Below, piece by piece: positions 16,391 through 42,802 of a DNA stretch of 42,802 nucleotides. A model generated the notes under the pieces. That model was not told the origin of the DNA. It searched no databases and worked only from the letters and a program-made list of their open reading frames with translations. Numbering within the stretch: position 1 is the first letter of the stretch; every line of letters begins with the position of its first letter. Origin of the DNA: a virus; IMG/VR virus record IMGVR_UViG_3300042892_002365, positions 1 through 42,802 of that record. One strand, given 5' to 3'. The translations under genes and the position numbers were made by a program.

Positions 16391-16399
16391 ATTTTATAA

Positions 16400-21090: not shown

Positions 21091-21131
21091 AATTTTATTT
21101 TTTATTTGAATTATTAATACTTTGAGATTAG

Positions 21132-22629: not shown

Positions 22630-22650
22630 AAATTTTATTCCGTTTATATA

Positions 22651-22679: not shown

Positions 22680-22683
22680 AATC

Positions 22684-22986: not shown

Positions 22987-22987
22987 C

Positions 22988-25090: not shown

Positions 25091-25093
25091 ACT

Positions 25094-25609: not shown

Positions 25610-25610
25610 A

Positions 25611-26174: not shown

Positions 26175-26180
26175 ACTATC

Positions 26181-26390
26181 TTATTTTTTTAATCCATACT
26201 TAATCCATCTATACCACACTCTTTCGTGGATGTAATATTGAATGGGTTTATATACTAACTCAGCAACACCAAAAGCCACTCCAACTTTAATTGAGCCACT
26301 TATCCACCACATTATTATGAAACCAACCAAGGTACTCACAATTCGATATGATATGGTTTTAGCGATGTGTCTTTTTCTTTCTACAATCAT
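26181..26390 (-). CDS. DUF2061 small membrane protein
   Basis: The 69-residue protein has the DUF2061 pattern: KTISYRIVSTLVGF, a membrane segment with WWISGSIKVGVAFGVAELVYK, and the closing YYIHERVWYRW. Two short hydrophobic stretches suggest one or two membrane spans. It starts at ATG 26388-26390 with a 4-base overlap with the sulfotransferase upstream. From memory, DUF2061 genes often neighbour sulfate-activation genes in bacteria, which fits the sulfation block here. Its molecular function is not known. Confidence 0.85.
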   Translation of the reverse strand: MIVERKRHIAKTISYRIVSTLVGFIIMWWISGSIKVGVAFGVAELVYKPIQYYIHERVWYRWIKYGLKK

Positions 26391-27046: not shown

Positions 27047-27426
27047 TATCCTTTAGTTTGGTCATATGTTATTGTACCATCTGGCGTCATATGTCCGGTT
27101 CTAATAGCCGTTCCACTAATAACCGCCACATCAGCGGGAGGTTCATGATATATAACATCGTACCCAACACCTCTACCATAATTAACAGATTCAATATCAG
27201 GAATAATAGATATTTGAATCTTATGTGAATTATCTTTAAAAAATTGGGTGTCAACTAATTCCATCATAACCTCTTGTGCACTTTTTGGGTTATTTTCATC
27301 AATTGGGACATTCCTGATTGCCAACCAAATGTCCTTACCCTTATCAAGTTGTTGATTGATTAACCATTCATGCCCCTTATGCCAGTTCTGCCATCTTCCG
27401 ATGTACATTGCGTATTTTTTACTCAT
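27046..27426 (-). CDS. HIGH-type nucleotidyltransferase (cytidylyl/adenylyltransferase fold)
   Basis: The 126-residue protein has the nucleotidyltransferase signature GRWQNWHKGHEWL with His16-x-Gly-His19, and a closing ISGTAIRTG (residues 103-111). This is the pattern of the HIGH superfamily, which includes NMN adenylyltransferase, cytidylyltransferases and, more distantly, ATP sulfurylase. The middle VNYGRGVGYDV is shared with phage homologues beside APS kinase genes. It overlaps the APS kinase gene by 4 bases and the sulfotransferase by one. An ATP-sulfurylase-like role making APS is attractive in context but not supported by length or motif; an adenylyl- or cytidylyltransferase of unknown substrate is the safe call. 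Confidence 0.78.
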   Translation of the reverse strand: MSKKYAMYIGRWQNWHKGHEWLINQQLDKGKDIWLAIRNVPIDENNPKSAQEVMMELVDTQFFKDNSHKIQISIIPDIESVNYGRGVGYDVIYHEPPADVAVISGTAIRTGHMTPDGTITYDQTKG

Positions 27427-27863
27427 AATGATAATTTTTTTAACAGTTCATAATATGAATCTGTTTCGTTTTTTATTGTTGTGTCTATATCTATAAAATT
27501 TTCTAATGGTGGTTCATATTCCTCAACGTGGAATTGATTCCTACCTCTATCCTCTGTAGTGTGTACATAAATCTCAACAACCGATGTGCTGAATTTAAAA
27601 GCCTCTCTTTGGTCTCTATATGGTGAAACTAGGGATACAATAACATTATGTCCTTTACTATGCATGAATTGTGCAATGTATTGTGCTCTTTGGATGTTTA
27701 ATCTTCTTCCTGTAATGGAATAGTCCTTGTTTTTAAAGATGTCCCTTAGGTCATCTCCATCGATGTGGGTAACCTCATCTTTCGGAAAGTATTCCACTAA
27801 GTATTTTGCCAAGGTTGTTTTTCCGGCACCAGGCTGACCAGTTAACCAATATATCATTACCAT
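27423..27863 (-). CDS. cysC: Adenylylsulfate (APS) kinase
   Basis: The protein has the P-loop WLTGQPGAGKTTLAKYL and then HIDGDDLRDIF, the APS kinase nucleotide-binding DGD-LR motif. The sequence SITGRRLNIQRAQYIAQFM matches the family's R-x-x-N-I-x-R helix, and VSLVSPYRDQREAF matches its SPFRxxRE motif. It should phosphorylate adenosine 5'-phosphosulfate at the 3' position to make PAPS. I choose ATG 27861-27863 (146 residues); ATG 27855-27857 is the alternative. The longer frame starting at a TTG at 27893 reads through the hairpin and is rejected. It overlaps the nucleotidyltransferase start by 4 bases. It supplies the donor for the sulfotransferases nearby. Confidence 0.88.
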   Translation of the reverse strand: MVMIYWLTGQPGAGKTTLAKYLVEYFPKDEVTHIDGDDLRDIFKNKDYSITGRRLNIQRAQYIAQFMHSKGHNVIVSLVSPYRDQREAFKFSTSVVEIYVHTTEDRGRNQFHVEEYEPPLENFIDIDTTIKNETDSYYELLKKLSL

Positions 27864-27873
27864 TAATATAATC

Positions 27874-27900
27874 AATATATTTGAAAATATCAAATATATT
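27874..27900 (-). other. Hairpin with 11-base arms upstream of the APS kinase
   Basis: The arms AATATATTTGA and TCAAATATATT pair perfectly around a 5-base loop, in the gap between the small gene at 27919-28035 and the APS kinase start. No T-run follows on the minus strand, so it is not a classic terminator. It could set relative expression of the sulfation genes by mRNA processing or by stalling. Confidence 0.5.
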
Positions 27901-27918
27901 TAAATGATTTTTATCATA

Positions 27919-28035
27919 TTAATGATTGTAAATAAATGGGTCTTTTTTACGTAATTCTTCTAATTTCTTCTTAAAACGTTTTTTACGTTTATAATCCTCA
28001 ATTTTTGATTTAATCCAATTCAATAGTTTTTTCAT
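27919..28035 (-). CDS. Small basic protein, 38 aa, ending DPFIYNH
   Basis: The frame from ATG 28033-28035 to TAA 27919-27921 encodes 38 residues rich in Lys and Arg (about 45% basic), with an amphipathic helix-like start (KKLLNWIKSKIEDY) and the terminal DPFIYNH. A closely similar small 'RKKRFKKKLEEL...DPFIY' protein is, from memory, often placed beside phage carbamoyltransferase genes, and here too it follows one after a single base. It is a real but unassigned gene, probably a partner or helper of the carbamoyltransferase. Confidence 0.7.
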   Translation of the reverse strand: MKKLLNWIKSKIEDYKRKKRFKKKLEELRKKDPFIYNH

Positions 28036-28036
28036 A

Positions 28037-29704
28037 TTATTTATATATTAAATAATTACCCATAACAAGTAAATCCATGTCTGTTTTAAAAAACGTATCA
28101 ACCGCATCTTTTGGTGTTAGGACCATAGTTTTATCTTTAACATTAAATGACGTATTAAGTAAAATAGGGTATCCCGATAGTTCTTCAAATTTAACTAATA
28201 GTTTATATATTAACGTGTGTTTGTAAACGGTTTGTATTCTAGCACTACCGTCGACGTGTGTAACTGCGGGTAATTTATCCCTATATTCAGGTTTAACCTG
28301 TACAACTTGATTCATATATGGTACATCATCTGTAACGTCAAAAAATAGATGTTGTTTATCTTTTATTACCATTGGGGCAAATGGTCTAAAACCCTCTCTT
28401 TTTTTGATTAATTTATTAATCCTATCTTTCATACCATCTATAGTGGGATCAGCTAAAATTGACCTGTTTCCTAAAGCCCTGGACCCAAATTCACAATAAC
28501 CGTTGTACCATCCTATTACTTTACCCTCTTTTAATTTTTTAGCCACATTACGTAATAAGGAATCCTCCAAATTAAATTTAATATATCGTTTACCTTTAAT
28601 CGCCTCTAAAATATCGTTATGAAGAAAATGTGGACCTATAAATGGTGATTTATTTACTCGACCAATTAATTTACGATTTTTAACTAAGTAGTGTATACAT
28701 GCACCAATTGCCGATCCGGCATCTGATGGTGCGGGAGGTATCCATAAATTATTAAAATGTGAATTTCTTACAATCTTACCGTTTGCCGTTCCATTGTACG
28801 CACATCCTCCACCTAAACAAAGATTCCTATTATCGTTTATTAACGATATTGATTTTATCACTTCAAATAATATCTCTTCATATCTTTTTTGAACTGCAGC
28901 CGCTAAATCTTTGTGGTGAGGTTCCAATCCACCATCCATTGCTCGAGGTTCCATCTCAAGTAGTTCACATAGTTGGTCATTAAACATTGTTTTGTTGGAT
29001 TTATCCCAACAAAATACATCCATATTACATGTTAATTTACTATTTTTAAACGAAATGAGTTTCCTAACTTTATCGATATAGATATCGGGGTTTCCGTATG
29101 GTGCTAAACCCATTACCTTATATTCTCCTTCATTGGGTCTAAACCCTAAAAACGATGTCATTGCGGAATAGAATAACCCAACTGAATGTGGGTATTTTGC
29201 CATTGATATATAATCAATACCCACTCTATCACCTAACCCTAAAGACATTGTGTCAACCTCACCAACACCATCGATAGAAAGACATATTGCGTTTTCAAAA
29301 TTTGATGTATAGAAGGAATAATAAAGATGTGATTCGTGATGTGTTGAATAAAAAACATTATCCGAATATTGAGACAATAGTTTCTTTAATTTATATGTAT
29401 TTCTTTTAATCTTAATGAAAGATGATAAAGAATAAATGGTATTTTTAAAAATTTGTGGTTTTATGTTATTAATGACCCTCTCTAATTTTAATTTAGGGTC
29501 TTCATAATAACAAACCGCCTCAATGTTGTCTTTTGATAGTTTATATTTTTTTACGATATATCCAATACTATTAAAGGGAAATTCACTATCATGTTTTATG
29601 CCTGTGAATTTTTCTTCTTCGCAAGCATATATTAATTGTCCGTCTTTGAATAGACAGGCCGATGAATCATGATAAAATGCCGATATCCCTAATATATATT
29701 TCAT
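28037..29704 (-). CDS. Carbamoyltransferase (NodU/CmcH/TobZ family)
   Basis: The 555-residue protein has both halves of this family. The N-terminal Kae1-like half starts ILGISAFYHDSSACLF and includes the metal-binding THHESHLYYSFY. The C-terminal YrdC-like half has GWYNGYCEFGSRALGNRSIL, then PFAPMV. Such enzymes use carbamoyl phosphate and ATP to carbamoylate a hydroxyl on a sugar or nucleoside, as in Nod factor and tobramycin synthesis. The length is normal. It overlaps the glycosyltransferase gene upstream by 4 bases. It probably decorates a glycan or nucleotide made by the neighbours. Confidence 0.92.
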   Translation of the reverse strand: MKYILGISAFYHDSSACLFKDGQLIYACEEEKFTGIKHDSEFPFNSIGYIVKKYKLSKDNIEAVCYYEDPKLKLERVINNIKPQIFKNTIYSLSSFIKIKRNTYKLKKLLSQYSDNVFYSTHHESHLYYSFYTSNFENAICLSIDGVGEVDTMSLGLGDRVGIDYISMAKYPHSVGLFYSAMTSFLGFRPNEGEYKVMGLAPYGNPDIYIDKVRKLISFKNSKLTCNMDVFCWDKSNKTMFNDQLCELLEMEPRAMDGGLEPHHKDLAAAVQKRYEEILFEVIKSISLINDNRNLCLGGGCAYNGTANGKIVRNSHFNNLWIPPAPSDAGSAIGACIHYLVKNRKLIGRVNKSPFIGPHFLHNDILEAIKGKRYIKFNLEDSLLRNVAKKLKEGKVIGWYNGYCEFGSRALGNRSILADPTIDGMKDRINKLIKKREGFRPFAPMVIKDKQHLFFDVTDDVPYMNQVVQVKPEYRDKLPAVTHVDGSARIQTVYKHTLIYKLLVKFEELSGYPILLNTSFNVKDKTMVLTPKDAVDTFFKTDMDLLVMGNYLIYK

Positions 29705-30501
29705 ACAATATTTTCTAAATAGCCTATGTTTTTTCTACTGTCTCTTTTATTCGTATTTATGTGTAAAAATTTTTGTGATATCAAATCTAATGATTCAAAA
29801 TTTGTACTATAATCTTTATAAATATGTGGGATAAAAAACCCAAAATCAACATTATGTTTTAACACATATTGGTGAAATATGAATTGTTCTAATAATGTTG
29901 GTGGTATTTTATATACTTCTTCTCTTGGTACTATATCCATTATTTCCTTAAAAATTGTACTTACAAAATATGGTAATTTAACCATTATCACACAAAAAGA
30001 TGGAAACGTTGTCCAATTGAAATTCTTAATATCCTCATCATTAAAGTATTTCTTCATATGGGTATTGAATGGGTTTATATAAGCATCGTACGCCCACAAC
30101 AATTGATTTAAAGTTATACGATCTCCATCAAACTTCTCTTCTGGTTGTCCATAAGTAATTGAGTGGGTAGATTCCAATTTTTCCATCAATATCACGTCAA
30201 AATCCATCAAAATATATGGTTCTGTTTCATTCATCATAGCATATATTTTAGATATTGAATATTGATTACTATTATACTCATAGTTATCCGTATATTTTAA
30301 TATAAACTCATCAATTATAATAACCTCATCAAATGTAATTCCCTTTTCCTTAAAAAGATTTAAGGATATGTTATCGCAATATATTTTAGTTTTATAAAAC
30401 TTCTTCGCCGATTTAACGGACAATTTAGCCAACCTAAAAAAATTGTCGTTTATTGGTTTGTAGTGGTTAACAACATGGGTAAATCCAAAAACTACTTTCA
30501 T
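29701..30501 (-). CDS. Glycosyltransferase-like protein with DxD motif
   Basis: The 266-residue protein starts at ATG 30499-30501, which follows the SGNH stop with one base between; an earlier in-frame ATG at 30570 would overlap that gene. YILMDFDVILM (Asp-Phe-Asp) is a DxD-type nucleotide-sugar and metal motif. VYKIPPTLLEQFIFHQY near residue 200 matches the LLEQ helix of DUF6734-like glycosyltransferases. It probably adds a sugar in the cytoplasm. Part of its coding sequence is identical over 28 bases to the sulfotransferase at 26387-27046. Confidence 0.7.
   Translation of the reverse strand: MKVVFGFTHVVNHYKPINDNFFRLAKLSVKSAKKFYKTKIYCDNISLNLFKEKGITFDEVIIIDEFILKYTDNYEYNSNQYSISKIYAMMNETEPYILMDFDVILMEKLESTHSITYGQPEEKFDGDRITLNQLLWAYDAYINPFNTHMKKYFNDEDIKNFNWTTFPSFCVIMVKLPYFVSTIFKEIMDIVPREEVYKIPPTLLEQFIFHQYVLKHNVDFGFFIPHIYKDYSTNFESLDLISQKFLHINTNKRDSRKNIGYLENIV
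29885..29912 (-). repeat. 28-base exact repeat shared with the sulfotransferase gene (copy 2)
   Basis: This block is identical to 26616-26643 and encodes the same KIPPTLLE in the same frame. In this gene the peptide fits the expected family motif (PPTLLEQ), so this may be the source copy. Confidence 0.7.
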
Positions 30502-30502
30502 A

Positions 30503-31222
30503 TTAATATTGATTTGAGTTAAGAAGAGTTGGTAGATATTCTTCAGCGAAAAGTTTATGTCCTGCCTCATTTAAATGAAATCCTTTATCCATGTAATAAT
30601 CATCTGGATTATAGTTATCTCGTAACCATTTCATAAATGGATATTTTATGTAATTAGTTTTATCAATTTTTTTAGATTGTTCAAATTTCCATATACTCAT
30701 GTTACTTTCCTCACCCCAAAAATAATCGTCATATGGGATTAAGATTAAATAAATTCCTTTATGTTTTAATAATTGTTGTAACAAATAGATTTCATTCATA
30801 ATGGTGTTTAGGTAAAATGTTGAGAGCATTACTTTTTCATTAAAGAATCTAATTGCGTCGTTATCTAACGGCATTTTATCTCCATTTACCGCCTCTAAAT
30901 AATTGGCGGGTACTAAATGAAAAATATCCGCAACTGAAGTGTCAACATCGGTTATGTTATTGTTTAGAAATCTATTTTCACCATTATATGTTATTGGATA
31001 TCTGTCAAATGTGGTTAATTGTAGAATTATCGTCGTATATTCTTCTTTTGATATCTCATCAACAATTTTTTGAATTGCATATTGTAATGAACTTGCAGGT
31101 TGGGATACATTAACTAACGTGTGGTTGTTATTTTTAGCAAATATATTACCCCAAGATTTATTAATGTCATCTAAACCAAAACCCGCAGAATGACTACATC
31201 CCGCTAATAACATTTTTTTCAT
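30503..31222 (-). CDS. SGNH/GDSL-type hydrolase-like protein
   Basis: The 239-residue protein begins MLLAGCSHSAGFGLDD with the block-I nucleophile candidate Ser10, has a QPASSLQYAI segment for the next block, and ends with DKGFHLNEAGHKLFAEEY holding the Asp212 and His216 catalytic pair. No signal peptide is seen. It could deacylate or acylate a glycan. Its start overlaps the radical SAM gene stop by one base (TAATG), and it lies directly upstream of the glycosyltransferase and carbamoyltransferase genes. It is a distant relative of the SGNH protein at 15590-16390. Confidence 0.8.
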   Translation of the reverse strand: MKKMLLAGCSHSAGFGLDDINKSWGNIFAKNNNHTLVNVSQPASSLQYAIQKIVDEISKEEYTTIILQLTTFDRYPITYNGENRFLNNNITDVDTSVADIFHLVPANYLEAVNGDKMPLDNDAIRFFNEKVMLSTFYLNTIMNEIYLLQQLLKHKGIYLILIPYDDYFWGEESNMSIWKFEQSKKIDKTNYIKYPFMKWLRDNYNPDDYYMDKGFHLNEAGHKLFAEEYLPTLLNSNQY

Positions 31223-32289
31223 TATATCAAATTTTGTTCGTCGTGTTCGTTTAGATTATGTAATATGTTTTTGTATTTTTTAATTTTTACCAATTCTTTT
31301 ACAAAATCACTATACTCTGGATTGGTTGGTTCCCATATTTTCATTTGCACATATCTCTCATCCGATATACTCGGCCATTGAACCACTTTTTGGAGTTGAA
31401 TGACAGTTTTAATTTTTGAATCCTTAAATAAATCGTCTATCATTAAAACAAACGCCTCCATTTCTCTAAAGTTATTCTGTTGAACAACAAATGAGAAAAT
31501 AATTGTTTCTATAGTATCGATTGTTCGAATGAATTCGAGATTCTCCATCAATACTTCCCACTTACCTCCAAGTCTTGTTTTATTCTCATACGTGTCTTTT
31601 GTCGCCGCATCAATAGATATCTCCGCCATTCTAACGTATGGATGAATACCAATCATTTGACTCCACACTTTGTCAGTCCATAACGATGCATTTGTATGAA
31701 GAATAACACTTTCAATTGCCGGAAAATCTTTATCATTAAGATTGGTTAGGAAGTTTCTCATTGGTATACTATAGAAAGGATCACCTCCACCGCTTACATA
31801 AATTTCTTTTAATGTTGGTCCATAATATTCCGCAATACTATCAAGTAATTTGTTAGTTCTTTCGGTTTTTTCAGGTGTGTTAGGATATAAATCAATTCGA
31901 CAAGTTGGACAACGGAAATTACAAGCATCGTCAGAACATATTTTAATTCTTCTTGGTCCTTTATGATTGTATCTTTCAGCATCAAATTCACTAATTGGTC
32001 TAATGTTACCGGCTGGTTTACCTGTGTTTAATAATGTATTATACGCAGGACAATTTATCGGATTACATCCCACAAAATTACCACTAAGATGTCCTTCTCT
32101 AACTCTTTTAGCCGGTTCAGACTCCCAGTTATCCATTAGGTTATCTGAAACATGAATATCTACGTCATTCCAATCGGGACAACATAAAAATTGTGTTTCT
32201 TTTATTCCTTCATGTGTGAATTTTCTGTGAAATTCCGTGTAAACAAATGGATGTTCACAATAATATTTTGTTAAATCAACTTTCGCCAT
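31222..32289 (-). CDS. Radical SAM protein with N-terminal auxiliary cysteines (paralogue of 19849-20898)
   Basis: The 355-residue protein has an N-terminal cysteine set (Cys11, 36, 37, 75, 80) followed by the radical SAM motif CNFRCPTC (Cys123, 127, 130) and YVSGGGDPF. HTNASLW, AEISIDAATKDTYENKTRLGGKWEVLMENLEF and SFVVQQNN are near copies of segments in 19849-20898. It overlaps the SGNH start by one base and ends EQNLI. Its own start lies inside the 3' end of the next radical SAM gene. The order radical SAM, then SGNH, then glycosyltransferase suggests action on a glycan, but peptide substrates cannot be ruled out. Confidence 0.86.
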   Translation of the reverse strand: MAKVDLTKYYCEHPFVYTEFHRKFTHEGIKETQFLCCPDWNDVDIHVSDNLMDNWESEPAKRVREGHLSGNFVGCNPINCPAYNTLLNTGKPAGNIRPISEFDAERYNHKGPRRIKICSDDACNFRCPTCRIDLYPNTPEKTERTNKLLDSIAEYYGPTLKEIYVSGGGDPFYSIPMRNFLTNLNDKDFPAIESVILHTNASLWTDKVWSQMIGIHPYVRMAEISIDAATKDTYENKTRLGGKWEVLMENLEFIRTIDTIETIIFSFVVQQNNFREMEAFVLMIDDLFKDSKIKTVIQLQKVVQWPSISDERYVQMKIWEPTNPEYSDFVKELVKIKKYKNILHNLNEHDEQNLI

Positions 32290-33677
32290 GGTTTTTTGTT
32301 TTCTTGTATTAAATTTATTTCTTTAAGTTCTGGAGTTGGTGTCGGTGTTGGATCTGGTGGTTTAATAAATTCAACATAATTTGGGAACGTTTCATTTAAT
32401 GATTTTATTTCCTTAGATTCATACCATTCTTTATAATATGGAAATACATTCACGAACGTTTCATTTCTCCATTTATCCTTAATCTCAGTAAATTTTATAA
32501 GATCTTTATTAATTTCTTCTTTTGATTTATGGGGTTCCATGTAAAGATATTTTTTAATTACATCATAATAATTTTTAATGTGTATTGATTCTTCGTTACC
32601 CTCTATAGATTTAATGTGGTTATCTAATATTGTGATTGCATATTCTTTTAATTTGTCTGGTAAAATATTGATACAATAATAGTCTGGAAATGTCAACACA
32701 TTATTCATCTGCATTTTACTCATTGGGATTCCTAACTCAGACATTCTTTCAACAAATTTGGGTAATTCAAATAAATTAAAAATACTAACGGTGGTACTTG
32801 TCCACACATTCATATTATTTTCATGTAATCTTTTAATGTTACCTTCGACTGCAGACCACTTAGTATTTTTTCTAGCATATTCCGCAACTTCTCCAATTGC
32901 ATCCAAAGAAGCAAAAACTCTAACATTATCTTTATTAAATTTAACAAATGGTTTCCATAATTTAATTAAATCCCATTTTTTAAATTTAAGAGATGTAAAG
33001 TTTGTATTATATCTTATTCTACACTTCGTGTTCCCCGCTTTAATTAATTTCTCCAATATTATGTAATGTTCTTCCATGATGAATGGTTCTCCACCTGCAA
33101 AATATATCTCCTCAACGTCATTAATGAACCTATCAACATATATCATAATGTCTTCATGTGCTAAATCATTACAATGTATTAGTGCTTTTGGTGTTGATGA
33201 TTCTCCAAACATATTAATTTGGTCATCGTACCAACTTGAACTTAATTCGGGACCACACATTCTACATTTTAAATTACAAACATTTGAAAATCTAAAATCC
33301 CAATAATTTAATTTAAAATTACTGCTGGTCCCATCTTCCGATGTTGTTTCAATTGCATTATCAATGTGATGTCGCCATTGATCATTTGAACTAACTCTAA
33401 ATGATGGTGTACCCATATCTTCTTGCATATAACATCTATGACAAACATTGGGTTTTTCTCCATTTAATAGTTCAGTTCTAATTTTCTTTAAATCTTTGGA
33501 ATTCCATATCTCCTCCAATGTGTTCTTCTTTAAATTACCCACTGGATGGTCTGAATCCGCCAAACAACATGGATATACGTTTCCGTTTGGCCACGTGTGT
33601 AAATGTGTCCAAGGCATAATACAAAACGTATCACTTACCTTATCTCCAGCACTATTAAATTTTTTATCCTTACTCAT
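32271..33677 (-). CDS. Radical SAM protein, Twitch/SPASM-type
   Basis: The 468-residue protein resembles Twitch-domain radical SAM proteins. N-terminal DTFCIMPWTHLHTWPNG (Cys19), YPCCLAD (Cys37-38) and VCHRCYMQED (Cys79, 82) give the auxiliary cysteine set. The core CNLKCRMC is at Cys134, 138 and 141, and AGGEPFIMEEH is the SAM-binding site. The C-terminus ends PWRKLI and overlaps the next radical SAM gene by 19 bases. Unlike the next three, it has no LamG gene downstream. It shares the N-terminal plan with the other Twitch-type genes and may act on the same class of substrate. Confidence 0.86.
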   Translation of the reverse strand: MSKDKKFNSAGDKVSDTFCIMPWTHLHTWPNGNVYPCCLADSDHPVGNLKKNTLEEIWNSKDLKKIRTELLNGEKPNVCHRCYMQEDMGTPSFRVSSNDQWRHHIDNAIETTSEDGTSSNFKLNYWDFRFSNVCNLKCRMCGPELSSSWYDDQINMFGESSTPKALIHCNDLAHEDIMIYVDRFINDVEEIYFAGGEPFIMEEHYIILEKLIKAGNTKCRIRYNTNFTSLKFKKWDLIKLWKPFVKFNKDNVRVFASLDAIGEVAEYARKNTKWSAVEGNIKRLHENNMNVWTSTTVSIFNLFELPKFVERMSELGIPMSKMQMNNVLTFPDYYCINILPDKLKEYAITILDNHIKSIEGNEESIHIKNYYDVIKKYLYMEPHKSKEEINKDLIKFTEIKDKWRNETFVNVFPYYKEWYESKEIKSLNETFPNYVEFIKPPDPTPTPTPELKEINLIQENKKPWRKLI

Positions 33678-35131
33678 TATATTAATTTACCATTTCCATT
33701 ATTAGTACCTTTATATTCACCCAATTCGTAATTGGTAATTCTACCATCACTAATCGGTACGTTTGGTATACTATAATCAACTACGATACTATCATACCAT
33801 TCAACCAACTCAGGAAAAGTTTTACGGAAGTCTTTATTTCTTCTAATGTCATATTGTTCATAGAAACTTTTAAAATCGTGAAAATGTTTATCTAAATCAT
33901 TTTCAGTTGCAATATGTCCCTTCTCAACTACCTCAACATAATCAATCAGACGTAATATTTGTGCAATCTCACCTTCATGTAATAAAGACAAGTTATCTTT
34001 ATTTTGATACCATGTTTTTAATTTATCATGAGCTAATTTTTTTAAATCATTCGGTAAAGATACTGGCGACATAAATGCTGGCCATCTTAATATGTTTAAA
34101 TCAACCACCAATTTGTATTGACCATACTTTTTCTTTAATAATATCATATCATCCAAGAATTCGGTGATACTAAATAAACATAAACTATTGATGGTCATCA
34201 TAATGATTAATTGTCTACACTTAGCCTCTTCAATAATACGAACCACATTTTTTCTCCACACATCGTACTTTAATCCGTCTCTGATATATTCAGCTTGGTC
34301 CCCATACGCCTCACAACTTGTGTATAAATCAAAATTCTTAACATCAATTTCGTGTGATGTTTGAATTAGTTTATCAATTAGTTTATCTTCAACTCCTAAG
34401 TTAGAGTTAATTGCTAGGTTTAAGTTTGGTGATGAATTCATCTTCATTACATCCATAAAGTTCCAAAAGTTAAACGACGTTGATGGTTCTCCGCCAGTAA
34501 TTCTAACCTCTTGTAATGTTTGTGATAATTCGGGCCACCACTCCATAAATGCTTGAACGTATGGATTATCATCACCATTTTTACCATAAACTTCGGACCA
34601 AGAACCATCGGAATGATATGCTCCTGCAGATGATGATTTAAATTTTTGATAGGGTCCGTTCTTTCTAATGTCCTGACCCCACGTAGTGGAATATCCCGAA
34701 TTACAATATGAACAAGCAAAATTACAAGTCCTATCAAAAGAAACCTCTACCGTCTTTAAATTAATATCCTGGTCCCATGGTCTATCTTTAAGTGCCAATA
34801 AATCTTCATCAGAATATATTTTACTTTTAAAAACTCTATCTGAAATGTTATTTCTACCAACATCTTCTACTTTCCAACAATAAGAACATTCGGCAGGTCT
34901 AATACCTTCTTGCATCATTTTACGTGCCTCTTTTTTTATCTTTGTATTGTGTAATGCTGATGGATTTGTTTTAATCTCTTCTAAATCAATAGGATGTGGT
35001 AATGGTAAATGACATGAATTAGTATAACCATGACCTAAATGTAAACTTGCGTTATACCATTTAGCGGCACAGAAACTCTTACTAATGCTATTAAGCCTAC
35101 TATCTCTCCAAATTTTTAAGTCTTCTGACAT
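33677..35131 (-). CDS. Radical SAM protein, Twitch/SPASM-type
   Basis: The 484-residue protein has the shared N-terminal cysteine plan SFCAAKW (Cys21), NSCHLPLPH (Cys40) and ECSYCWKVED (Cys82, 85). The core is CNFACSYC (Cys136, 140, 143) and the SAM-binding site RITGGEPSTS. It is close to the genes at 35709 and 37731, sharing ALHNTK-KK, ISDRVFKS and the C-terminal FRKTFPELVEWY layout. It ends NGKLI in the junction motif, with a TAATG overlap. The adjacent LamG-like gene upstream, four bases away, is probably a functional partner. Confidence 0.87.
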   Translation of the reverse strand: MSEDLKIWRDSRLNSISKSFCAAKWYNASLHLGHGYTNSCHLPLPHPIDLEEIKTNPSALHNTKIKKEARKMMQEGIRPAECSYCWKVEDVGRNNISDRVFKSKIYSDEDLLALKDRPWDQDINLKTVEVSFDRTCNFACSYCNSGYSTTWGQDIRKNGPYQKFKSSSAGAYHSDGSWSEVYGKNGDDNPYVQAFMEWWPELSQTLQEVRITGGEPSTSFNFWNFMDVMKMNSSPNLNLAINSNLGVEDKLIDKLIQTSHEIDVKNFDLYTSCEAYGDQAEYIRDGLKYDVWRKNVVRIIEEAKCRQLIIMMTINSLCLFSITEFLDDMILLKKKYGQYKLVVDLNILRWPAFMSPVSLPNDLKKLAHDKLKTWYQNKDNLSLLHEGEIAQILRLIDYVEVVEKGHIATENDLDKHFHDFKSFYEQYDIRRNKDFRKTFPELVEWYDSIVVDYSIPNVPISDGRITNYELGEYKGTNNGNGKLI

Positions 35132-35134
35132 TTT

Positions 35135-35728
35135 CTATAGTTTGTGTATAAAGTTACAATTATTTGTTAAATCAACAAATTTATTATGTATTATGTTATT
35201 AAAATCGTGATGTGATATTAAAGTATCCTCATGATATAATTTAAAATTAATTAAATCCATGTCACACGAATTTAAATCAGGTGAATTCCAAGGAAACGTC
35301 TCCGAACCAAAGAATATTTGTGGGTCATTAGTGTGATTAAAATTATGTGTTGACAATACCATTTTATCGTCAATATAAACATTAAATTTAGTAAAATCAA
35401 CATTCTCAACCTTTAGTTTATGAACTTTACCAATTTTAATTATGTCTCGAATATCTTTATGTACGTTATGTGTTTCACTACCTTCGGTGCTCATATGTAT
35501 GGCACTTAGATTTTCATTATAATAGTGAAGTACAAAGTAATTTGGGTTAATAGATAGTATTGTTCCTCTCTCTCCACTATTCTTACTGATTTCATTAATT
35601 TTGAAATCAAACTCAAAACTAAAATTATACTTTCCCGATATAACTTGGTTTCCACCTAAGTCGAAAAACGATGGACATATTTTGGTTGGCCATAATACCC
35701 ATGTGTCGCTAGTCTTTATATTTTTCAT
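35135..35728 (-). CDS. LamG/concanavalin-like beta-sandwich protein
   Basis: The 197-residue protein has the strand pattern of a LamG/concanavalin-A-like jelly roll: YNFSFEFDFKINE, VHKLKVENVD, FNVYIDDKMVL and a closing FKLYHEDTLI strand. No enzyme motif, signal peptide or membrane segment is seen. It overlaps the radical SAM gene upstream by 20 bases and sits between two radical SAM genes. LamG domains bind carbohydrates or act as spacers, so it may present or recognise a sugar-bearing substrate, which is inference. Confidence 0.72.
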   Translation of the reverse strand: MKNIKTSDTWVLWPTKICPSFFDLGGNQVISGKYNFSFEFDFKINEISKNSGERGTILSINPNYFVLHYYNENLSAIHMSTEGSETHNVHKDIRDIIKIGKVHKLKVENVDFTKFNVYIDDKMVLSTHNFNHTNDPQIFFGSETFPWNSPDLNSCDMDLINFKLYHEDTLISHHDFNNIIHNKFVDLTNNCNFIHKL

Positions 35729-37076
35729 AGAATTCTTTTAATTGTGGGAATGTTTTGATGAAATTAGTTTCTCTTCTTCTATCATATTCAGTTATATATT
35801 TTGCAAACTGTTGTCTTACGTATGTCATATCAACATTATTAGTTGTAAGTGCATAATCATATGTCCTTTTAATTTTTTGAATTTGACTATCAGAGAATCC
35901 ATACCCATTTTCAAACTTACCATAATATAATGCCTTCTTTGCCGATTCCAAAATCAATTCTTTATGTTCTGACTCAAGAATGTTAACTGAAAGAAATGAT
36001 GGGTATCTTAAATAAGATGTATCTAACAATAAAGCTCCTTCCCAATAACGAATGTCATTATGAAATTTCTTTTTATATTCAAAAACCCTCTCAATTAAAT
36101 CACCATATGAAAATACGGACAACGCATTAAATGTTGCCATAATATTAACGACGACCTTTGGTAGTTGTTCTAATATATCGTGTATATTAACCCAAAGTTG
36201 ATTGTAATCTAAACCAAATCTTGTATATTCAGCCTGTTCTTTAGCGGCCTCTACCGATGTGAATATAATTAATTCCCTAACTTTATTGTTGTTGGTTAAA
36301 TCTTTACAAATTGTAATCAACTTATCAATTAATTGTCTTGGTACGGATAGGTTCGTATTAATTGCCAATGATAAATTTGGATTCTCTCTCCAATGTTCTT
36401 GAATGTATTCTAAAACTTTAAACGTATCATTCATTAATAGAGGTTCTCCTCCTGTTATTCTAAACGTATGTAAATCCTTATATAAATCAGGCCACCATTT
36501 CCAAAATGCTTCGGTATAAGGATTTTCATCGGTAAGTTTATATGTTGTATCAATTCTATTATCTACAAAATCTAATGAATTAAAATTATGATTTTCCGTA
36601 TATGGTCCAAACTTCTTAATCTCCTCAACCCATTTTGATGAATATGGTGGACTACAATAAGCACATTTTAAATTACAAGTATTTCCAAAAGAAATTTCCA
36701 AATACCTTGGGTTATAATCTTCTCTCCAATCTAAATTTTTAATGGTGTCGTATTGGTCGATTGACCATTGTTCCGCCGATTTAAAAACTCTATCGGAAAA
36801 TGAATTAGAGTTATCCTCAACATTCCAACAATAATCACATTCTCCAGGTCTACCACCCTCTAGCATAGTTTTTCTTTGCTGTTTCTTAAAATTAGTATTG
36901 TGTAACGCCTTTGGGTTGTTTTTTATTTCTTCTAAAGGTATTTTATGGGGTATAGGGTGGTGACAAGAATGTGTTGTACCATTCAATAGATGTATAGTTA
37001 CTTGTGTCCACTTTGCTAAACAAAATCCACATCCAACACCATTCAATTGTTTTTTTACTTCATTAAAATCACTCAT
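35709..37076 (-). CDS. Radical SAM protein, Twitch/SPASM-type
   Basis: The 455-residue protein has GCGFCLAKWTQVTIHL (Cys16, 19), HSCHHPIPH (Cys38), ECDYCWNVED (Cys80, 83), the core CNLKCAYC (Cys134, 138, 141) and RITGGEPLLMND. It is very similar to the gene at 37731 along most of its length, including GGRPxECxYCWNVEDNSNSFSDRVFKS and WKWWPDLYKDLHTFRITGGEPLL (the latter given in parts). It is flanked by two LamG-like genes and overlaps the downstream one by 20 bases. Confidence 0.88.
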   Translation of the reverse strand: MSDFNEVKKQLNGVGCGFCLAKWTQVTIHLLNGTTHSCHHPIPHKIPLEEIKNNPKALHNTNFKKQQRKTMLEGGRPGECDYCWNVEDNSNSFSDRVFKSAEQWSIDQYDTIKNLDWREDYNPRYLEISFGNTCNLKCAYCSPPYSSKWVEEIKKFGPYTENHNFNSLDFVDNRIDTTYKLTDENPYTEAFWKWWPDLYKDLHTFRITGGEPLLMNDTFKVLEYIQEHWRENPNLSLAINTNLSVPRQLIDKLITICKDLTNNNKVRELIIFTSVEAAKEQAEYTRFGLDYNQLWVNIHDILEQLPKVVVNIMATFNALSVFSYGDLIERVFEYKKKFHNDIRYWEGALLLDTSYLRYPSFLSVNILESEHKELILESAKKALYYGKFENGYGFSDSQIQKIKRTYDYALTTNNVDMTYVRQQFAKYITEYDRRRETNFIKTFPQLKEFYEKYKD

Positions 37077-37077
37077 A

Positions 37078-37728
37078 TTAAACTATTTTTTGTTTAGGTC
37101 CCATTTTAGTGTATTCGTTTATCTTTTCATTTCTATAAACCGGATCTTCGTAATATATACCATGATTACCGTTACCGCTAGAATCTAATGTCTTAAATCT
37201 AGATATATCTTCAAATGTTAAGTGTGAGTATAGATTATCCGTACCATTTGGGTTTGTAATAATTTCATCAAAAATTTTCACTTCGTTAATTGCACCATCA
37301 AATGCACATTCCCATTGTTCAAAATGTGGATTAATTGATCCAATAAGAATGTTCTTATCGTGGTAATTTAATATATCGTTACATTTTTTAGAACCTAAGA
37401 AAAAACCATCTTTATAAATTCTAATTTCATCCGATATTGTAACCAATATTTTCATTTGGTCATATATGTTATCTAATTCAATAAAAATATCATTATATAC
37501 ATTCTTATCATTGTGCCAACAAAACTTAATTGCGTTTGGTTTTTGTAAAAATAATCCCATATAATGTTCATCTTGTCTACCGATAACACACGCCTCGTTA
37601 TCGATGAAATTATCTAATTTAAAATCAACATAAAACGTGTAACCACTTTTTAAGTTTTCAAAACTTTTAGTATTAGTTTTATATGTGGTAAAATTGGGGA
37701 TGTAGTATGTTGTTTTATTAAACTTCAT
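37078..37728 (-). CDS. LamG/concanavalin-like beta-sandwich protein
   Basis: The 216-residue protein shows the LamG pattern: YTFYVDFKLDNF, then the ligand-face strand KILVTISDEIRIYKDGFFLGS, NILIGSINPH, AFDGAINEVKIFDEI and the family-typical closing segment LDSSGNGNHGIYY. It resembles the LamG part of the two GT7-type proteins more than the 35135-35728 protein in its strand wording (DGFFLGS, VKIFDE, SSGNGNHG). It lies between two radical SAM genes with one- and two-base gaps. Confidence 0.8.
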   Translation of the reverse strand: MKFNKTTYYIPNFTTYKTNTKSFENLKSGYTFYVDFKLDNFIDNEACVIGRQDEHYMGLFLQKPNAIKFCWHNDKNVYNDIFIELDNIYDQMKILVTISDEIRIYKDGFFLGSKKCNDILNYHDKNILIGSINPHFEQWECAFDGAINEVKIFDEIITNPNGTDNLYSHLTFEDISRFKTLDSSGNGNHGIYYEDPVYRNEKINEYTKMGPKQKIV

Positions 37729-37730
37729 TA

Positions 37731-39116
37731 TTATATATTTTTATAAAATTCAGCTAACTCTGGAAATGTTTTAACAAAATCTTTACTTCTTCTTAAATCA
37801 TATTCGGTTATGAATTTTTTAAAGTCCCATTTATTGGTTGTTAAATCTTCTTCTGTTTTTTCAACCGACATCCAATCATAAATTCTATTCAATTTATTAA
37901 TTTCAATTTCGGTAAAACCATATCCATCTAACCCAACTCTTGTTTGCTCATAGAAGTCCATTAATTGCATCTGTTCTTTAACCACACCTTTCCACTCATC
38001 TCCTAAAATTTTAACTGACTGATGTTTTGGCCACCTTAAATAAGATGAATCTAACATAACAGATGAACCATAGTATCGATATGGATTGTGGTATTCTTCT
38101 TTCAACTTATAAACATTCTTTATTAGTTCTTTATAATTTGGAACTGATAGTGCATTATATGTTGACATAATGATAACCGTTAATTGTGGTATTTCGTTTA
38201 ACAAAATATTAATCCTATCCCACCATAAATTAAAAACCATACCATCTCTAATGTATTCCGCTTGTGGACCCCACGTATCGGCACTTGTAAAAACAATAAG
38301 TTCATTTACCCTATTCTCATCAATCAATCTTTTTATTTTGATAACAAAATCATCGAATAATTTATTTGGTGTACCTAAGTTAGTGTTTATGGATAAATTC
38401 AAATTCCTATTAGGTTCTTTAGAATCTAAAATATAATCAAACACTTTAAAGGTGTCTTTTGATAATAGAGGTTCTCCTCCCGTGATTCTAAATGTGTGTA
38501 AATCCTTATATAAATCGGGCCACCATTCCCAAAATCCATTTACATATGGATTAACTTCAGAATGTAAATATGGTAAAGGGTTTTGTCTTTTACCAAATGC
38601 CAAATCTAAATTATTAAAATTAGTTGATGTTGGATAACCTCCATGTTGTTCAATTTCTTGAACCCATTGAGATGAAAAGGTTGGTCCACAATATGAACAT
38701 TTAAAATTACATTGATTACTAAAAGACACTTCAACATATCTTGGGTTGAAGTTATCTCTCCAATGTAAATCCTTTATTTCATCAAGATGTTTTATTGACC
38801 ATGGTTCTGATGATTTAAAAACTCTATCTGAGAATGAATTTGAATTATCTTCGACGTTCCAACAATAGTTACATTCATCTGGTCTTCCTCCCTCCATCAT
38901 AGTTTTTCTCTGTCTCTTTTTAAAGACACTATTATGTAGTGCAGATGGATTTAAAGCCAATTCATTTAAAGACACATCATGTGGTGCGGGGTGATGGCAT
39001 GAGTGTGTTTGACCCACTTGTAGATGTAGAGTAACCTGTGTCCACTTTGCCAAACAAAATCCACACCCAACGGAGTTTAACTTTTCTTTTGTTTTATCGA
39101 ATATATCGTCAAACAT
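37731..39116 (-). CDS. Radical SAM protein, Twitch/SPASM-type
   Basis: The 461-residue protein has GCGFCLAKWTQVTLHL (Cys18, 21), HSCHHPAPH (Cys40), ECNYCWNVED (Cys82, 85), the core CNFKCSYC (Cys136, 140, 143) and RITGGEPLLSKD. Residues about 15-105 are almost the same as those of 35709-37076, showing recent duplication. It lies between the LamG-like gene and the first GT7-LamG gene. The neighbours suggest that its products or partners carry sugars. No substrate is visible. Confidence 0.88.
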   Translation of the reverse strand: MFDDIFDKTKEKLNSVGCGFCLAKWTQVTLHLQVGQTHSCHHPAPHDVSLNELALNPSALHNSVFKKRQRKTMMEGGRPDECNYCWNVEDNSNSFSDRVFKSSEPWSIKHLDEIKDLHWRDNFNPRYVEVSFSNQCNFKCSYCGPTFSSQWVQEIEQHGGYPTSTNFNNLDLAFGKRQNPLPYLHSEVNPYVNGFWEWWPDLYKDLHTFRITGGEPLLSKDTFKVFDYILDSKEPNRNLNLSINTNLGTPNKLFDDFVIKIKRLIDENRVNELIVFTSADTWGPQAEYIRDGMVFNLWWDRINILLNEIPQLTVIIMSTYNALSVPNYKELIKNVYKLKEEYHNPYRYYGSSVMLDSSYLRWPKHQSVKILGDEWKGVVKEQMQLMDFYEQTRVGLDGYGFTEIEINKLNRIYDWMSVEKTEEDLTTNKWDFKKFITEYDLRRSKDFVKTFPELAEFYKNI

Positions 39117-39117
39117 A

Positions 39118-40524
39118 TTATTTCATTTTTACATTAATAAACTTAGTATTTGAATATAAAGATACATCAATATTATCAATATCCATTACGTTTAGAATGT
39201 TATTTAATCCATCAACCTTATAATCTATCTTTCTTTGTTGCATTTCGGTAACAAATCTTTTCTCGTTTCTTGCAGTTGTTTCACCTTTTGCCCATGTACC
39301 ATTCATAAATCCTTCATCAATGTGTGGTAAACAATAAAAACTACCTTCTCTTCTATATGGTAATATATTTTCAACAACCTCAATGTTTTCTTCTTCAATA
39401 CTTATGTTCGATATATCAGTATGTGTTTTAAAATCATATCTTAATACTAAATCTTCATCACCATCAATGGCATCCATTACATTTTCTTTGAATGTATTAA
39501 AAACTTTAAAATCTGCTATTTTTCCTTTGTATCTTGTGTTTGTTTGTCCACAAAATCCAAGTAAAAATGGTCTAACCGCATCGTGCAATCTCAATGGATT
39601 AACAATAAACGAAGAATTGTTCTTAATGCCATTCATTTGTGTTGTCAAAGTATCGTTAATATAGAAGAACACTTCGTTTGTTTCACTTTTAAAAGCCATT
39701 GTTGCCCATGTCCATAAACCCTCAAACCTCTTCCCCCAATTATAATGTCTCATGTTGTCCCTATCGAACAATTGCATTGTGACCGCTCTTGAATTATTAA
39801 ACGATAATCCCCATGTCCAAGACCCATCTTTTCTGATTAATGGATATTCAATAAAACGTTTTTCGGTATCCCCAACTAACCAAATCGGAACTTTTTCTGG
39901 TTGTTGCTCCGCATTAAAAAGTATTGATATTGTATGGTCATTATGTAAACAAGAACTAATTTCTCTATTTGTTGGTAAGGCAACCAATGTGTTCTCCCCA
40001 TTGAATATTCCCACATTTTTATTTTCATATTTCTTAAAGAGTTTACCGGTGGTATAATTTTCAAAGTAACATCTCCAAAACAAATCATCGTCTTCTTGAC
40101 CCCAATCCCAATATTCATTTGAGTATCCGTTAGTTTTATACGCCTGTTCTTTAGTGAATAAAACAACTCCACCAAAGTATTGATCATATCCTAATCCATA
40201 TTGGTATTTTGATAATTTAGTTGCAATATGTATCGGTGTTTCTTCTGGATATGAGTAGTCTCCAATTATTTGACCACCTTCATCTGTTGTTAACATATCA
40301 ACGTCATGCCAAGCAATATAATCACAACCATCTTCAAACGCATAGTGAGCCGCAATATTTTTCATTGCACCTCTATTGAATAACTTATCGTCTACTTGAT
40401 GACCGACATAAAATGTATGTTCAATTCCTTGATTTGTTAAATGTTTTGAAAGGTGAGGTATTAATCTTTCTACGTGTTCCTTTCTATTTCTATATGGTAT
40501 ACATATACCTAATTTATGACTCAT
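39118..40524 (-). CDS. GT7-type glycosyltransferase with inserted LamG-like domain
   Basis: The 468-residue protein has the beta-1,4-galactosyltransferase-like (GT7) signature set. IPYRNRKEHVERLIPHL lies near residues 9-25, FNRG is at 49-52, the DVD motif at Asp74-Asp76, FGGVVLFT at 117-124, and WDWGQEDDD at 139-147. The segment after about residue 185 is a LamG-like beta-sandwich (WTWATMAFKSETNEVFFYIND, AVRPFLLGFCGQ, ADFKVFNTF). From residue 388 comes LPYRREGSFYCLPH, then RNEKRF and KVDGLNNILNV, matching the closing GT7 segment. So the LamG module seems inserted within the transferase. It probably acts on a cell or virion glycan; donor unknown. Confidence 0.85.
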   Translation of the reverse strand: MSHKLGICIPYRNRKEHVERLIPHLSKHLTNQGIEHTFYVGHQVDDKLFNRGAMKNIAAHYAFEDGCDYIAWHDVDMLTTDEGGQIIGDYSYPEETPIHIATKLSKYQYGLGYDQYFGGVVLFTKEQAYKTNGYSNEYWDWGQEDDDLFWRCYFENYTTGKLFKKYENKNVGIFNGENTLVALPTNREISSCLHNDHTISILFNAEQQPEKVPIWLVGDTEKRFIEYPLIRKDGSWTWGLSFNNSRAVTMQLFDRDNMRHYNWGKRFEGLWTWATMAFKSETNEVFFYINDTLTTQMNGIKNNSSFIVNPLRLHDAVRPFLLGFCGQTNTRYKGKIADFKVFNTFKENVMDAIDGDEDLVLRYDFKTHTDISNISIEEENIEVVENILPYRREGSFYCLPHIDEGFMNGTWAKGETTARNEKRFVTEMQQRKIDYKVDGLNNILNVMDIDNIDVSLYSNTKFINVKMK

Positions 40525-41945
40525 ATTCCTACGTTAATTTGTGTTATTTTATTTTCTTTATTTTTACCATGGACATGAAACGTTAGTGTTGATAACCCAT
40601 CATTATCTAATAGTTCTTTGTTTAAGGAAACTTCGTTATGAAACCTTAATTGGTTCCATCTAGTTGCTTGGTCCTTCCATTTATTACCTAAAAACCCATT
40701 TTCTTCATGTGAAAGTGATTTAAATATTGATTTTCTTCTATATGGTATTTTAACTTCAGTAATATCTTTGTAATCTGTGTTTACAACTTCACAATTTTTT
40801 ATTTTACCATTATTCCCACCAACTAAATCAACTAAATTATAATCTTTAATAAAATTAGCATCGTAATAAGTTATTAGTGAGTTAGATGATTTATAATGAC
40901 CAAAATCTTTAGTTAGTAATTCCGTTTCGTTATGTGAGATTTCTATGATTTCATTTTCACTAAGAATTTCATTATAATATGCAAAACTATCTATGGTTCC
41001 TCTAAAATAATTTGGTATGATTTCTCTATCAGGTCTACCCGCCCCTAAATAAAAATTCTTCTCTTTTTTATAGAAATATAATTTTCTAAATGTAGGTGTT
41101 TCCCCAATAAAATAACCATCTTGGTAAACCTTGATGTTGTTATTCATTCTGTCTAAAACCACAACCATATTTGTTTTATAATTTGGTTTGATATTAGAGT
41201 TAACATATAGTGAATTGTGTAAGGTGTCGAACGCACAAAAATTATATCTCGAGAATGAATTGTAACATATAGCAAAATCCCAACCAGGAATACTAAAAGA
41301 TGTAAACTCGTCGGATTCCTTTTTGTGATTTAAAAATAATTTATCAGGACAAAATGAAATAAAGAAAGTTGCGTTTTGATTTAAATCAATAACGTTCTCA
41401 CATTCAACATAAGCATCTACACCATTAAATTTTAATGTCTTTCCCTTTCTACCATGATTTTTTAAACGTAACGTATCTAATTCGATTCCTTTACGTTCAC
41501 ATCTTAATAATAAATCAGTATCTTCGTAACCCCATGCCCAATATTTGTTAGAGTATCCATCGACTTTAATAAAAGACCCAACAGGAAACATTGTAACTCC
41601 ACCAAAATATTGGTCAAACACTTCTCTTTTTTTTTCGTTCTCTTGTAATTGAAAATTGGTCGCTAAATGTAGTGGGATATCTGAGTACGAATAATCAACA
41701 TTAACTGGTAACATATCTACATCGTGAAAAACAACATAGTCACAATTTAATTTGATGGATTCTTTAAATCCAATGTTTAACAACATACCTCTATTAAATT
41801 GTTTTGCACCATCTTGATTAACCACAATTATTTCATAGTTAATATTTTTTTCAGTTAGATATTCCTCAATATCAAATAAAAATTTTTTTAAATGATGAGG
41901 TCTATCTCGATAAGGTACAATAACACCTAATTTATGGCTATCCAT
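40521..41945 (-). CDS. GT7-type glycosyltransferase with inserted LamG-like domain
   Basis: The 474-residue protein is a paralogue of the next gene. VPYRDRPHHLKKFL at residues 10-23, FNRG at 50-53, HDVDML with Asp75 and Asp77, FGGVTMFP, and WAWGYEDTDLLLRC at 136-149 are the GT7 motifs, here with EDTD in place of EDDD. Residues about 168-350 are LamG-like (NATFFISFCPD, IKVYQDGYFIGE, FYLGAGRPDRE, DSFAYYNE). From there the IPYRRKSIFKSL, GFLGNKW, RWNQLRF and DNDGLSTLTF segments close the GT7 part. It overlaps the small gene upstream by 8 bases. A tandem pair suggests two linkages or substrates. Confidence 0.85.
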   Translation of the reverse strand: MDSHKLGVIVPYRDRPHHLKKFLFDIEEYLTEKNINYEIIVVNQDGAKQFNRGMLLNIGFKESIKLNCDYVVFHDVDMLPVNVDYSYSDIPLHLATNFQLQENEKKREVFDQYFGGVTMFPVGSFIKVDGYSNKYWAWGYEDTDLLLRCERKGIELDTLRLKNHGRKGKTLKFNGVDAYVECENVIDLNQNATFFISFCPDKLFLNHKKESDEFTSFSIPGWDFAICYNSFSRYNFCAFDTLHNSLYVNSNIKPNYKTNMVVVLDRMNNNIKVYQDGYFIGETPTFRKLYFYKKEKNFYLGAGRPDREIIPNYFRGTIDSFAYYNEILSENEIIEISHNETELLTKDFGHYKSSNSLITYYDANFIKDYNLVDLVGGNNGKIKNCEVVNTDYKDITEVKIPYRRKSIFKSLSHEENGFLGNKWKDQATRWNQLRFHNEVSLNKELLDNDGLSTLTFHVHGKNKENKITQINVGI

Positions 41946-42141
41946 TTATAGTTGGGTCTTTTGGTTTTGCAATGGTATGGAATTCGGCCAAGTAATATTG
42001 TGCTCTCTGACTCCATTCTTCTTTATCGATGTCTTCAAACCATGTGGTTAAAGCATCCATTGAATTAGCAATTTTTTCTAATGCCTTTACTTTGCGTTGT
42101 TCTAAAAGTAATTGTTCGTTTTTTTCTTCTTTTGCTGTCAT
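41938..42141 (-). CDS. Small coiled-coil-like protein, 67 aa
   Basis: The 67-residue protein is acidic and basic by turns and helical (KEEKNEQLLLEQRKVKALEKI, then LTTWFEDIDKEEW), with no enzyme motif. It starts at ATG 42139-42141 with a 4-base overlap with the glycosyltransferase gene, and its last codons overlap the GT7 gene start. Translational coupling on both sides and normal codon use make it real. It may help its glycosyltransferase neighbours oligomerise, which is speculation. Confidence 0.65.
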   Translation of the reverse strand: MTAKEEKNEQLLLEQRKVKALEKIANSMDALTTWFEDIDKEEWSQRAQYYLAEFHTIAKPKDPTING

Positions 42142-42802
42142 ATTGATATGATTTTTTTAATTAATTTATTCCATTGTTTATATCTTTTAAATTCAGGCTC
42201 CCCGTATGAATGTTCAATCATAAAATCTTTATGACTAACATCGATTTTAAATTTACTTTTTCTTAGATTAAGAAACATCGTTGCATATTCATTTGAGTGT
42301 GCGTATTCTTGTTTTATATCTGCAACTTGTTTAATCCTATCAATGCAAGTCTTATCCCACTTGAAGTGGTGTACTTGCACATATTCATTTGGATTAATTA
42401 GTGGGTGGTTCCATCCTTGCCATTTCCAAGTTGTTTGTCCATCAATTTTAGCATAATGTTGGCCGGATGTAATTTCAATATGTCCTTTCATTACACATAT
42501 CTTATTAGGACATGCCTTACTCATCGGGTATCTAAAAAATCCCATAACAGGAAACTGCTCAAATATCGGTTTGTCTTCTTTTATTTCAGAGAACTTTCCA
42601 TCTTCACCTATTCTATCAATGAATCCACCTCTCACAACGTCCCATCCATTCTCATCACAATTACTAATTAATTTCCTTAAATCATCTTCAGGATATAAAT
42701 GGAATTCATCAATGTCGGCAACTACCCACCAATCATTTGGTTGTGTGTTCTTAACAAAATTATATAATTGTGTAACCTTCTCCCAATCGAAAACTCTATT
42801 CT
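42138..42802 (-). CDS. Glycosyltransferase-like protein, 5' end outside window
   Basis: A frame open from the right edge to TGA/TAA at 42138 gives about 220 residues; an in-frame GTG at 42635 would be an internal false start. The visible N-terminal part (QLYNFVKNTQPNDWWVVADIDEF) has the DIDEF motif, an Asp-x-Asp-type metal and sugar-nucleotide site seen in GT92/Glyco_tranf_2_4-type enzymes. WQGWNHPLINP and the later HHFKW pattern fit the same group. It ends KKIISI. It would transfer a sugar. The family is likely, the substrate unknown. Confidence 0.72.
   Translation of the reverse strand, partial: NRVFDWEKVTQLYNFVKNTQPNDWWVVADIDEFHLYPEDDLRKLISNCDENGWDVVRGGFIDRIGEDGKFSEIKEDKPIFEQFPVMGFFRYPMSKACPNKICVMKGHIEITSGQHYAKIDGQTTWKWQGWNHPLINPNEYVQVHHFKWDKTCIDRIKQVADIKQEYAHSNEYATMFLNLRKSKFKIDVSHKDFMIEHSYGEPEFKRYKQWNKLIKKIISI

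Follow-up and report, generated by a model that had tools for sequence, protein, structure and literature searches.

LamG-like domains accompany twitch-type radical SAM enzymes and GT7 glycosyltransferases in a conserved phage gene cassette, a candidate modification pathway of the tail-fibre region

A fixed order of genes, comprising a GT2-like glycosyltransferase, a small protein, two GT7 enzymes with a LamG insert (GT7-LamG), a radical SAM (rSAM) enzyme and a LamG protein, recurs in 65 non-redundant loci of uncultivated phages taken from the best 80 of 449 related stretches. The gene set was characterized in the window, the whole 42,802-nucleotide stretch of IMG/VR virus record IMGVR_UViG_3300042892_002365, and in its relatives. 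We interpret it, with about even confidence, as a phage-encoded pathway of soluble modifying enzymes, located in the tail-fibre region, in which LamG parts choose the substrate, most likely the phage's own tail fibres or adhesins. The lectin-like domains probably steer sugar-attaching and radical enzymes onto a particular surface molecule. Multi-gene glycosyltransferase islands often adjoin tail-fibre genes in marine phages; the island described here combines a fixed core with a physical rSAM-to-lectin link that recurs between loci and with a discrete clade to test, and it provides named proteins (rSAM with LamG, and GT7-LamG) and a named molecule (the fibres) for experiment.

All open reading frames listed for the array lie on the minus strand of the window. 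Transcription runs from a GT2-like glycosyltransferase gene (42138-42800) through the gene of a 67-aa helical helper (41938-42141) and two GT7-LamG genes (enzyme 1, 40521-41945; enzyme 2, 39118-40524) to three rSAM genes (37731-39116, 35709-37076 and 33677-35131) separated by two standalone LamG-type genes (37078-37728 and 35135-35728). The preliminary description of this DNA had the array leading into the GT7-LamG genes; the direction is reversed, since transcription puts these genes first. The tight spacing that it reported was borne out, with intergenic gaps of 1-3 bases and overlaps of 4 bases (between the GT7 genes) and 20 bases (35709/35728). The gene run continues with a further N-terminal-twitch rSAM gene (32271-33677, minus strand), whose product has an N-terminal SPASM-type half domain (PF13186, E 1e-15), and a more distant rSAM gene (31222-32289, minus strand; PF04055, E 9e-10). 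Scans for promoters and terminators yielded no signal exceeding that of shuffled sequences. The GT2-like gene, of PF13704 type, is truncated by the window end (relatives are about 283 aa); its fragment matched Pfam at E 0.004, and a full-length relative, from L007, matched Pfam at E 9e-5. The helper has a conserved core, KVKALEKIANSLDALTxWFEEIDKxEWSxRIQYYLxEFH, and contains Cys in only 2 of 60 members. Its conserved helical middle, near lack of Cys and position away from the rSAM genes led us to reject it as a RiPP precursor.

Single-protein searches recovered 25 loci. A search of viral contigs with the GT7-LamG profile gave 449 related stretches; the best 80 were retained, and removal of near copies at 95% identity left the 65 non-redundant loci. 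Among the loci from these best 80 of 449, the GT2 gene lies two genes before the first GT7-LamG gene in 54 of 62 non-redundant loci, the helper gene directly before it in 60 of 64, and a second GT7-LamG gene after it in 59 of 64. Of 63 loci from the same best 80 of 449, 43 have an rSAM as the next gene and 10 have an rSAM fused to one or two LamGs in that place; a LamG gene then follows in 48 of the 63. A methyltransferase family, one member of which was typed as Methyltransf_24, occurs in 60 loci from the best 80 of 449, mostly three genes before the first GT7-LamG gene. The nearest relatives (L016 and L017) keep the full order of the window at identities of mostly 72-90%, and gene content downstream of the core differs between phages. 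In one variant (L075, 9796-21289) the GT2 gene is found behind the GT7 pair, with five twitch-type rSAM genes detected and no LamG partner. A T4-type major capsid protein scored above cut-off in 7 of the 12 large records searched. Cassette-bearing contigs from metagenome bins (MAGs) were binned as Pelagibacterales and Flavobacteriales, which is weak evidence on the host.

The GT7-LamG proteins, described previously as GT7 enzymes with an inserted LamG domain, both match the N- and C-terminal GT7 Pfam domains far above cut-off. Their inserts scored 29.0 bits (enzyme 1) and, weakly, 16.5 bits (enzyme 2) against the LamG family PF13385, for which the cut-off is 27.6. Enzyme 1 matched bovine b4GalT1 in the PDB at E 2e-29; residues 3-156 align to b4GalT1, and residues 425-471 align weakly to the C-terminal part of the galactosyltransferase. 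Because the alignment is split in this way, the LamG insert (about aa 163-400, window 40746-41459) is placed before the segment with the metal-binding His and the acceptor loop. The insert of enzyme 2 spans about aa 169-378. The AF2 model of enzyme 1 (pLDDT 92.6) combines a GT7 fold of the beta-1,4-galactosyltransferase type with a lectin-type jelly roll, and a Foldseek search with it returned b4GalT1 (E 6e-14), followed by pentraxin and other lectin-type jelly rolls. The GT7 motifs DxD, YFGG, WGxED and the C-terminal His are present in an alignment of 41 sequences, in which D75, Y113, G115, G116, W136, G139 and E141 are invariant and D77 and H413 are conserved in at least 90%. GT7 chemistry predicts that galactose, or a comparable UDP-sugar, is transferred in beta linkage; a UDP-Gal donor is suggested only by the Tyr of YFGG, which is invariant and has its parallel in b4GalT1.

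The catalytic part of these enzymes is better conserved than the LamG part, with LamG and GT identities of 47% vs. 56% in one GT7 and 39% vs. 64% in the other. GT-part identity exceeded LamG-part identity in 1711 of 1770 and 1530 of 1540 locus pairs for the two GT7s, pairs that share ancestry and are thus non-independent trials. Among 50,697 isolate phage records no relative of GT7-LamG was found (best match E 2), and a first scan of bacterial genomes detected none. A profile scan of cellular genomes (GTDB) recovered full-length GT7-LamG only in five MAG contigs (L102-L106); the remaining cellular GT7s match mainly the GT7 part and mostly lack the LamG insert. In one of the five, an apparently bacterial contig (L105, 6516-15685), GT7-LamG lies beside a GT2 gene, two ABC transporter-like genes and an HlyD-like gene, which suggests a cellular GT7-LamG tied to export; given this contig, GT7-LamG is apparently not exclusively viral.

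The twitch-type rSAM genes named in the preliminary description were confirmed with the N-terminal-twitch rSAM family NF033640 (cut-off 170 bits), which the products of 33677, 35709 and 37731 match at 300, 335 and 322 bits and that of 32271 at 400 bits. In an alignment of 33 sequences the CxxxCxxC motif (C136, C140 and C143) and the GGE motif (G213, G214 and E215) are invariant, as are C21, G35, C40, C82 and C85. The latter residues form CX9-15GX4C plus CX2C, the pattern of an auxiliary-cluster half domain. Radical SAM activity is predicted for these proteins.

A tree of 130 rSAM domains separated one clade of 66, in which 52 members have a LamG gene directly downstream, 11 are fused to LamG and three (L014, L079 and L084, a single subgroup) have neither. 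Of the other 64 rSAMs in the tree, none has a downstream LamG neighbour or a fusion; the tree was a quick one, and long branches outside the LamG-partner clade make its deep branching order unsure. The rSAMs 37731 and 35709 fall inside the clade, and 33677 and 32271 fall outside. The array therefore consists of two rSAM-to-LamG pairs, which derive from a duplicated ancestor, plus an rSAM of another clade without a LamG partner. The alternation of rSAM and LamG genes reported earlier thus holds for 37731 and 35709, each followed by its own LamG gene, but does not extend to 33677, and a three-fold repeat of one rSAM-LamG unit was ruled out. The rSAM 37731 had no relative in isolate phages at E 1e-5. 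That of 32271 had only distant ones, nearly all in Vibrio phages, and the Vibrio phage regions inspected around them contained no annotated LamG or GT partner.

The two standalone genes between the rSAM genes encode LamG-like proteins, as had been proposed. The 37078 product matches Laminin_G_3 at E 7e-6 and 26.7 bits, just under the Pfam cut-off of 27.6. The 35135 product had no Pfam match and was linked to the 37078 family by profile-profile alignment (hhalign; 95% probability, E 2.6e-8, 151 columns); its match to the GT7-insert profile was weaker (49%) and that to an unrelated rSAM profile was 1%. This link ruled out an unrelated fold for 35135, the outcome that would have undone the earlier description; the jelly-roll fold is assigned by the AF2 model and its pentraxin and lectin matches in Foldseek for GT7-LamG, and for 35135 only through its alignment to 37078. 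Partner LamGs have a median identity of 19% between loci, and their rSAMs 58%. Fast divergence of LamG alongside conserved catalysis is expected of a recognition module, although fast-changing LamGs could also reflect adhesins or relaxed constraint.

LamG is also joined physically to rSAM. In 10 of 63 non-redundant loci from the best 80 of 449, the rSAM is fused at its N-terminus to one or two LamGs; five rSAMs (L036, L038, L039, L058 and L069) have two tandem LamGs and are 931-940 aa long where complete. In L044 (4175-6919) GT7, LamG and rSAM occupy a single 914-aa reading frame, which may be a true fusion; since the genes around it are almost contiguous, loss of one stop codon or an error in assembly could also explain the frame. 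The model of the L013 LamG-rSAM fusion is confident in the rSAM part and poor in the LamG part; it matched LamG-type jelly rolls, viperin, the peptide maturase SuiB and BlsE, at the level of fold and not as functional assignments.

Genes downstream of the core share an unusual C-terminus. The ending [KTSN]-L-I-stop was found in 40 of 409 genes downstream of the core vs. 3 of 720 core and upstream genes (Fisher p 2e-15), and in the window it occurs in 14 of 44 genes (the 14 lying within 15590-33677) vs. the 0.3% expected from internal frequency. These endings sit on unrelated accessory enzymes, also in L006, L016, L018, L019, L034, L049, L084 and others, and in a 310-kb relative all three genes with the ending fall close to the cassette, at 120-140 kb. 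The codons vary synonymously, which favours a peptide-level signal, and Ile is encoded by ATA in 32 of 43 cases vs. 42% elsewhere, so translation coupling or another effect at the DNA level may account for part of the pattern. The ending is possibly a docking tag or a translation-coupling effect.

In the pathway that we propose, the GT2-like enzyme and the two GT7 enzymes would assemble a short glycan, which the PF13578-type methyltransferase encoded upstream may methylate. The N-terminal-twitch rSAMs would alter the same molecule, sugar or peptide, by radical chemistry. LamG would serve as a recognition module, built into the GT7s beside the acceptor side and provided to the rSAM by a separate, co-expressed subunit or, in a subset of phages, by fusion at the N-terminus. 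The preliminary description had LamG holding a substrate for rSAMs and glycosyltransferases; the holding role is strengthened by the LamG-rSAM fusions, the clade-specific pairing and the faster divergence of LamG. Three links of this pathway are inferred, namely binding of the substrate by LamG, a common substrate for GT and rSAM, and a fibre as that substrate; the bound ligand and the choice of a fibre or glycan target belong to the same interpretation. The three clade rSAMs without LamG and the low confidence of the LamG part of the fusion model weaken the fibre pathway. A more specific version is doubtful but possible: an rSAM holoenzyme with a lectin-type subunit that chooses the substrate would act with lectin-guided GT7s on one virion glycoprotein, forming a tail-fibre glycosylation and radical-chemistry assembly to which accessory enzymes are perhaps recruited via the C-terminal [KTSN]-L-I tag.

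A fibre target is supported by the relatives in which upstream proteins could be typed: fibre-type proteins are encoded on that side of the cassette. These include collagen repeats (L006, L013 and L038), endosialidase-chaperone S74 domains (L013, L015 and L048) and virion-type LamG proteins (L006 and L084); other loci have large untyped proteins upstream. The window ends inside its GT2 gene, and its own fibre-like gene (9604-14898, minus strand; a repeat-rich protein of 1764 aa) sits at the opposite end of the island and resembles the large upstream proteins of L007, L010 and L011.

The location of the island fits host-surface modification as well. A serious rival, if on balance a rather unlikely one, is that the infecting phage modifies LPS or capsule on the host surface, for instance to block superinfection, with LamG binding the glycan concerned. 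Authors of a pelagimyophage survey prefer host O-chain modification as the role of glycosyltransferases in the same hypervariable region (PMC7029224). Window 14973-31222 is rich in tailoring genes typical of surface sugars, encoding a NodU/CmcH-type carbamoyltransferase (28037-29704, minus strand; Carbam_trans N, E 7e-61, and C, E 4e-63, in Pfam), an APS kinase-like protein, several 2OG-Fe(II) oxygenases and an FkbM-type methyltransferase; several relatives carry nucleotide-sugar enzymes. Against a host glycan, the gene set adjoins fibre genes, no Wzx/Wzy-type flippase or polymerase was seen in the window or core, and no core protein has two or more predicted membrane spans, which supports a soluble pathway. 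The only multi-span protein of the window (380-1387) lies outside the island. Its region (380-2382) is unlike the rest of the window and also encodes a protein with a Bacteroidota-like signal peptide, whose listed start is overlapped by a tRNA-Arg.

A decidedly less probable explanation is that the standalone LamGs, as small adhesins or virion decorations, are themselves substrates of the adjacent rSAM, like maturase-substrate pairs. The LamG gene follows the rSAM gene immediately, with overlap, and evolves fast, and virion-type LamG proteins of similar size are encoded upstream in several relatives. The fusions speak against this explanation, since those loci carry LamG of the same type within the rSAM and yet retain the standalone gene. 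Outside their own kind, fused LamGs are closest to the standalone partner LamGs (83-119 bits), vs. 43 bits or less to the GT7 inserts, and have no match to the upstream virion-type LamGs. The latter are a separate group and were ruled out as the source of the fused LamGs. Among the core genes, no small RiPP precursor with a conserved leader and variable core was found beside an rSAM gene.

Hypermodification of phage DNA, with sugars and radical chemistry on bases, is very improbable; we know of no GT7 fold or lectin module acting as a DNA-modification enzyme, and the cassette is located in the fibre region, not among replication genes. DNA-modifying glycosyltransferases of phages are known, as cited in PMC12619734. 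The probability that unrelated genes gathered by chance in a hypervariable region is negligible, and this explanation is refuted for the core by an order kept in dozens of relatives (65 non-redundant loci from the best 80 of 449), clade-specific pairing and fusions, although the region downstream varies between phages and chance may hold for some genes there.

The fibre-directed pathway that we favour builds on known parts, namely the GT7 and N-terminal-twitch rSAM families and phage islands that carry both glycosyltransferase genes and radical SAM cassettes. As the preliminary description had supposed, no paper naming the system was found in the open-licence literature searched, nor were GT7-LamG, the LamG-partner rSAM clade or the conserved core. 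The host recognition cluster of pelagimyophages and cyanomyophages, a hypervariable island in the structural region, resembles this locus in having tail fibres, glycosyltransferases, concanavalin-type domains and, in some phages, radical SAM cassettes, but the available part of its description contains no GT7-LamG, LamG-rSAM pairing or fixed core order (PMC7029224). In a T4-like marine phage known from an environmental viral genome, as many as 12 radical SAM genes were read as Fe-S metabolism, and the text mentions neither LamG nor glycosyltransferase (PMC5332604). Moraphages, large aquatic phages with Bacteroidota as predicted hosts, have four groups of glycosyltransferases in their core genome, but radical SAM and LamG are not mentioned (PMC12619734). 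Animal beta-1,4-galactosyltransferases (GT7) have the same catalytic fold and motifs as the phage GT7-LamG, but no lectin domain inserted before the C-terminal part. The SPASM/twitch rSAM peptide maturases have an RRE recognition domain, either fused or encoded by a separate partner gene. The phage rSAMs are alike in that their recognition domain is fused or separate, but here it is LamG rather than RRE, and no precursor peptide was identified among the core genes. In polypeptide GalNAc-transferases an attached lectin biases the choice of acceptor; these enzymes differ from GT7-LamG in GT family, lectin fold and lectin position, the phage LamG being inserted within the GT domain.
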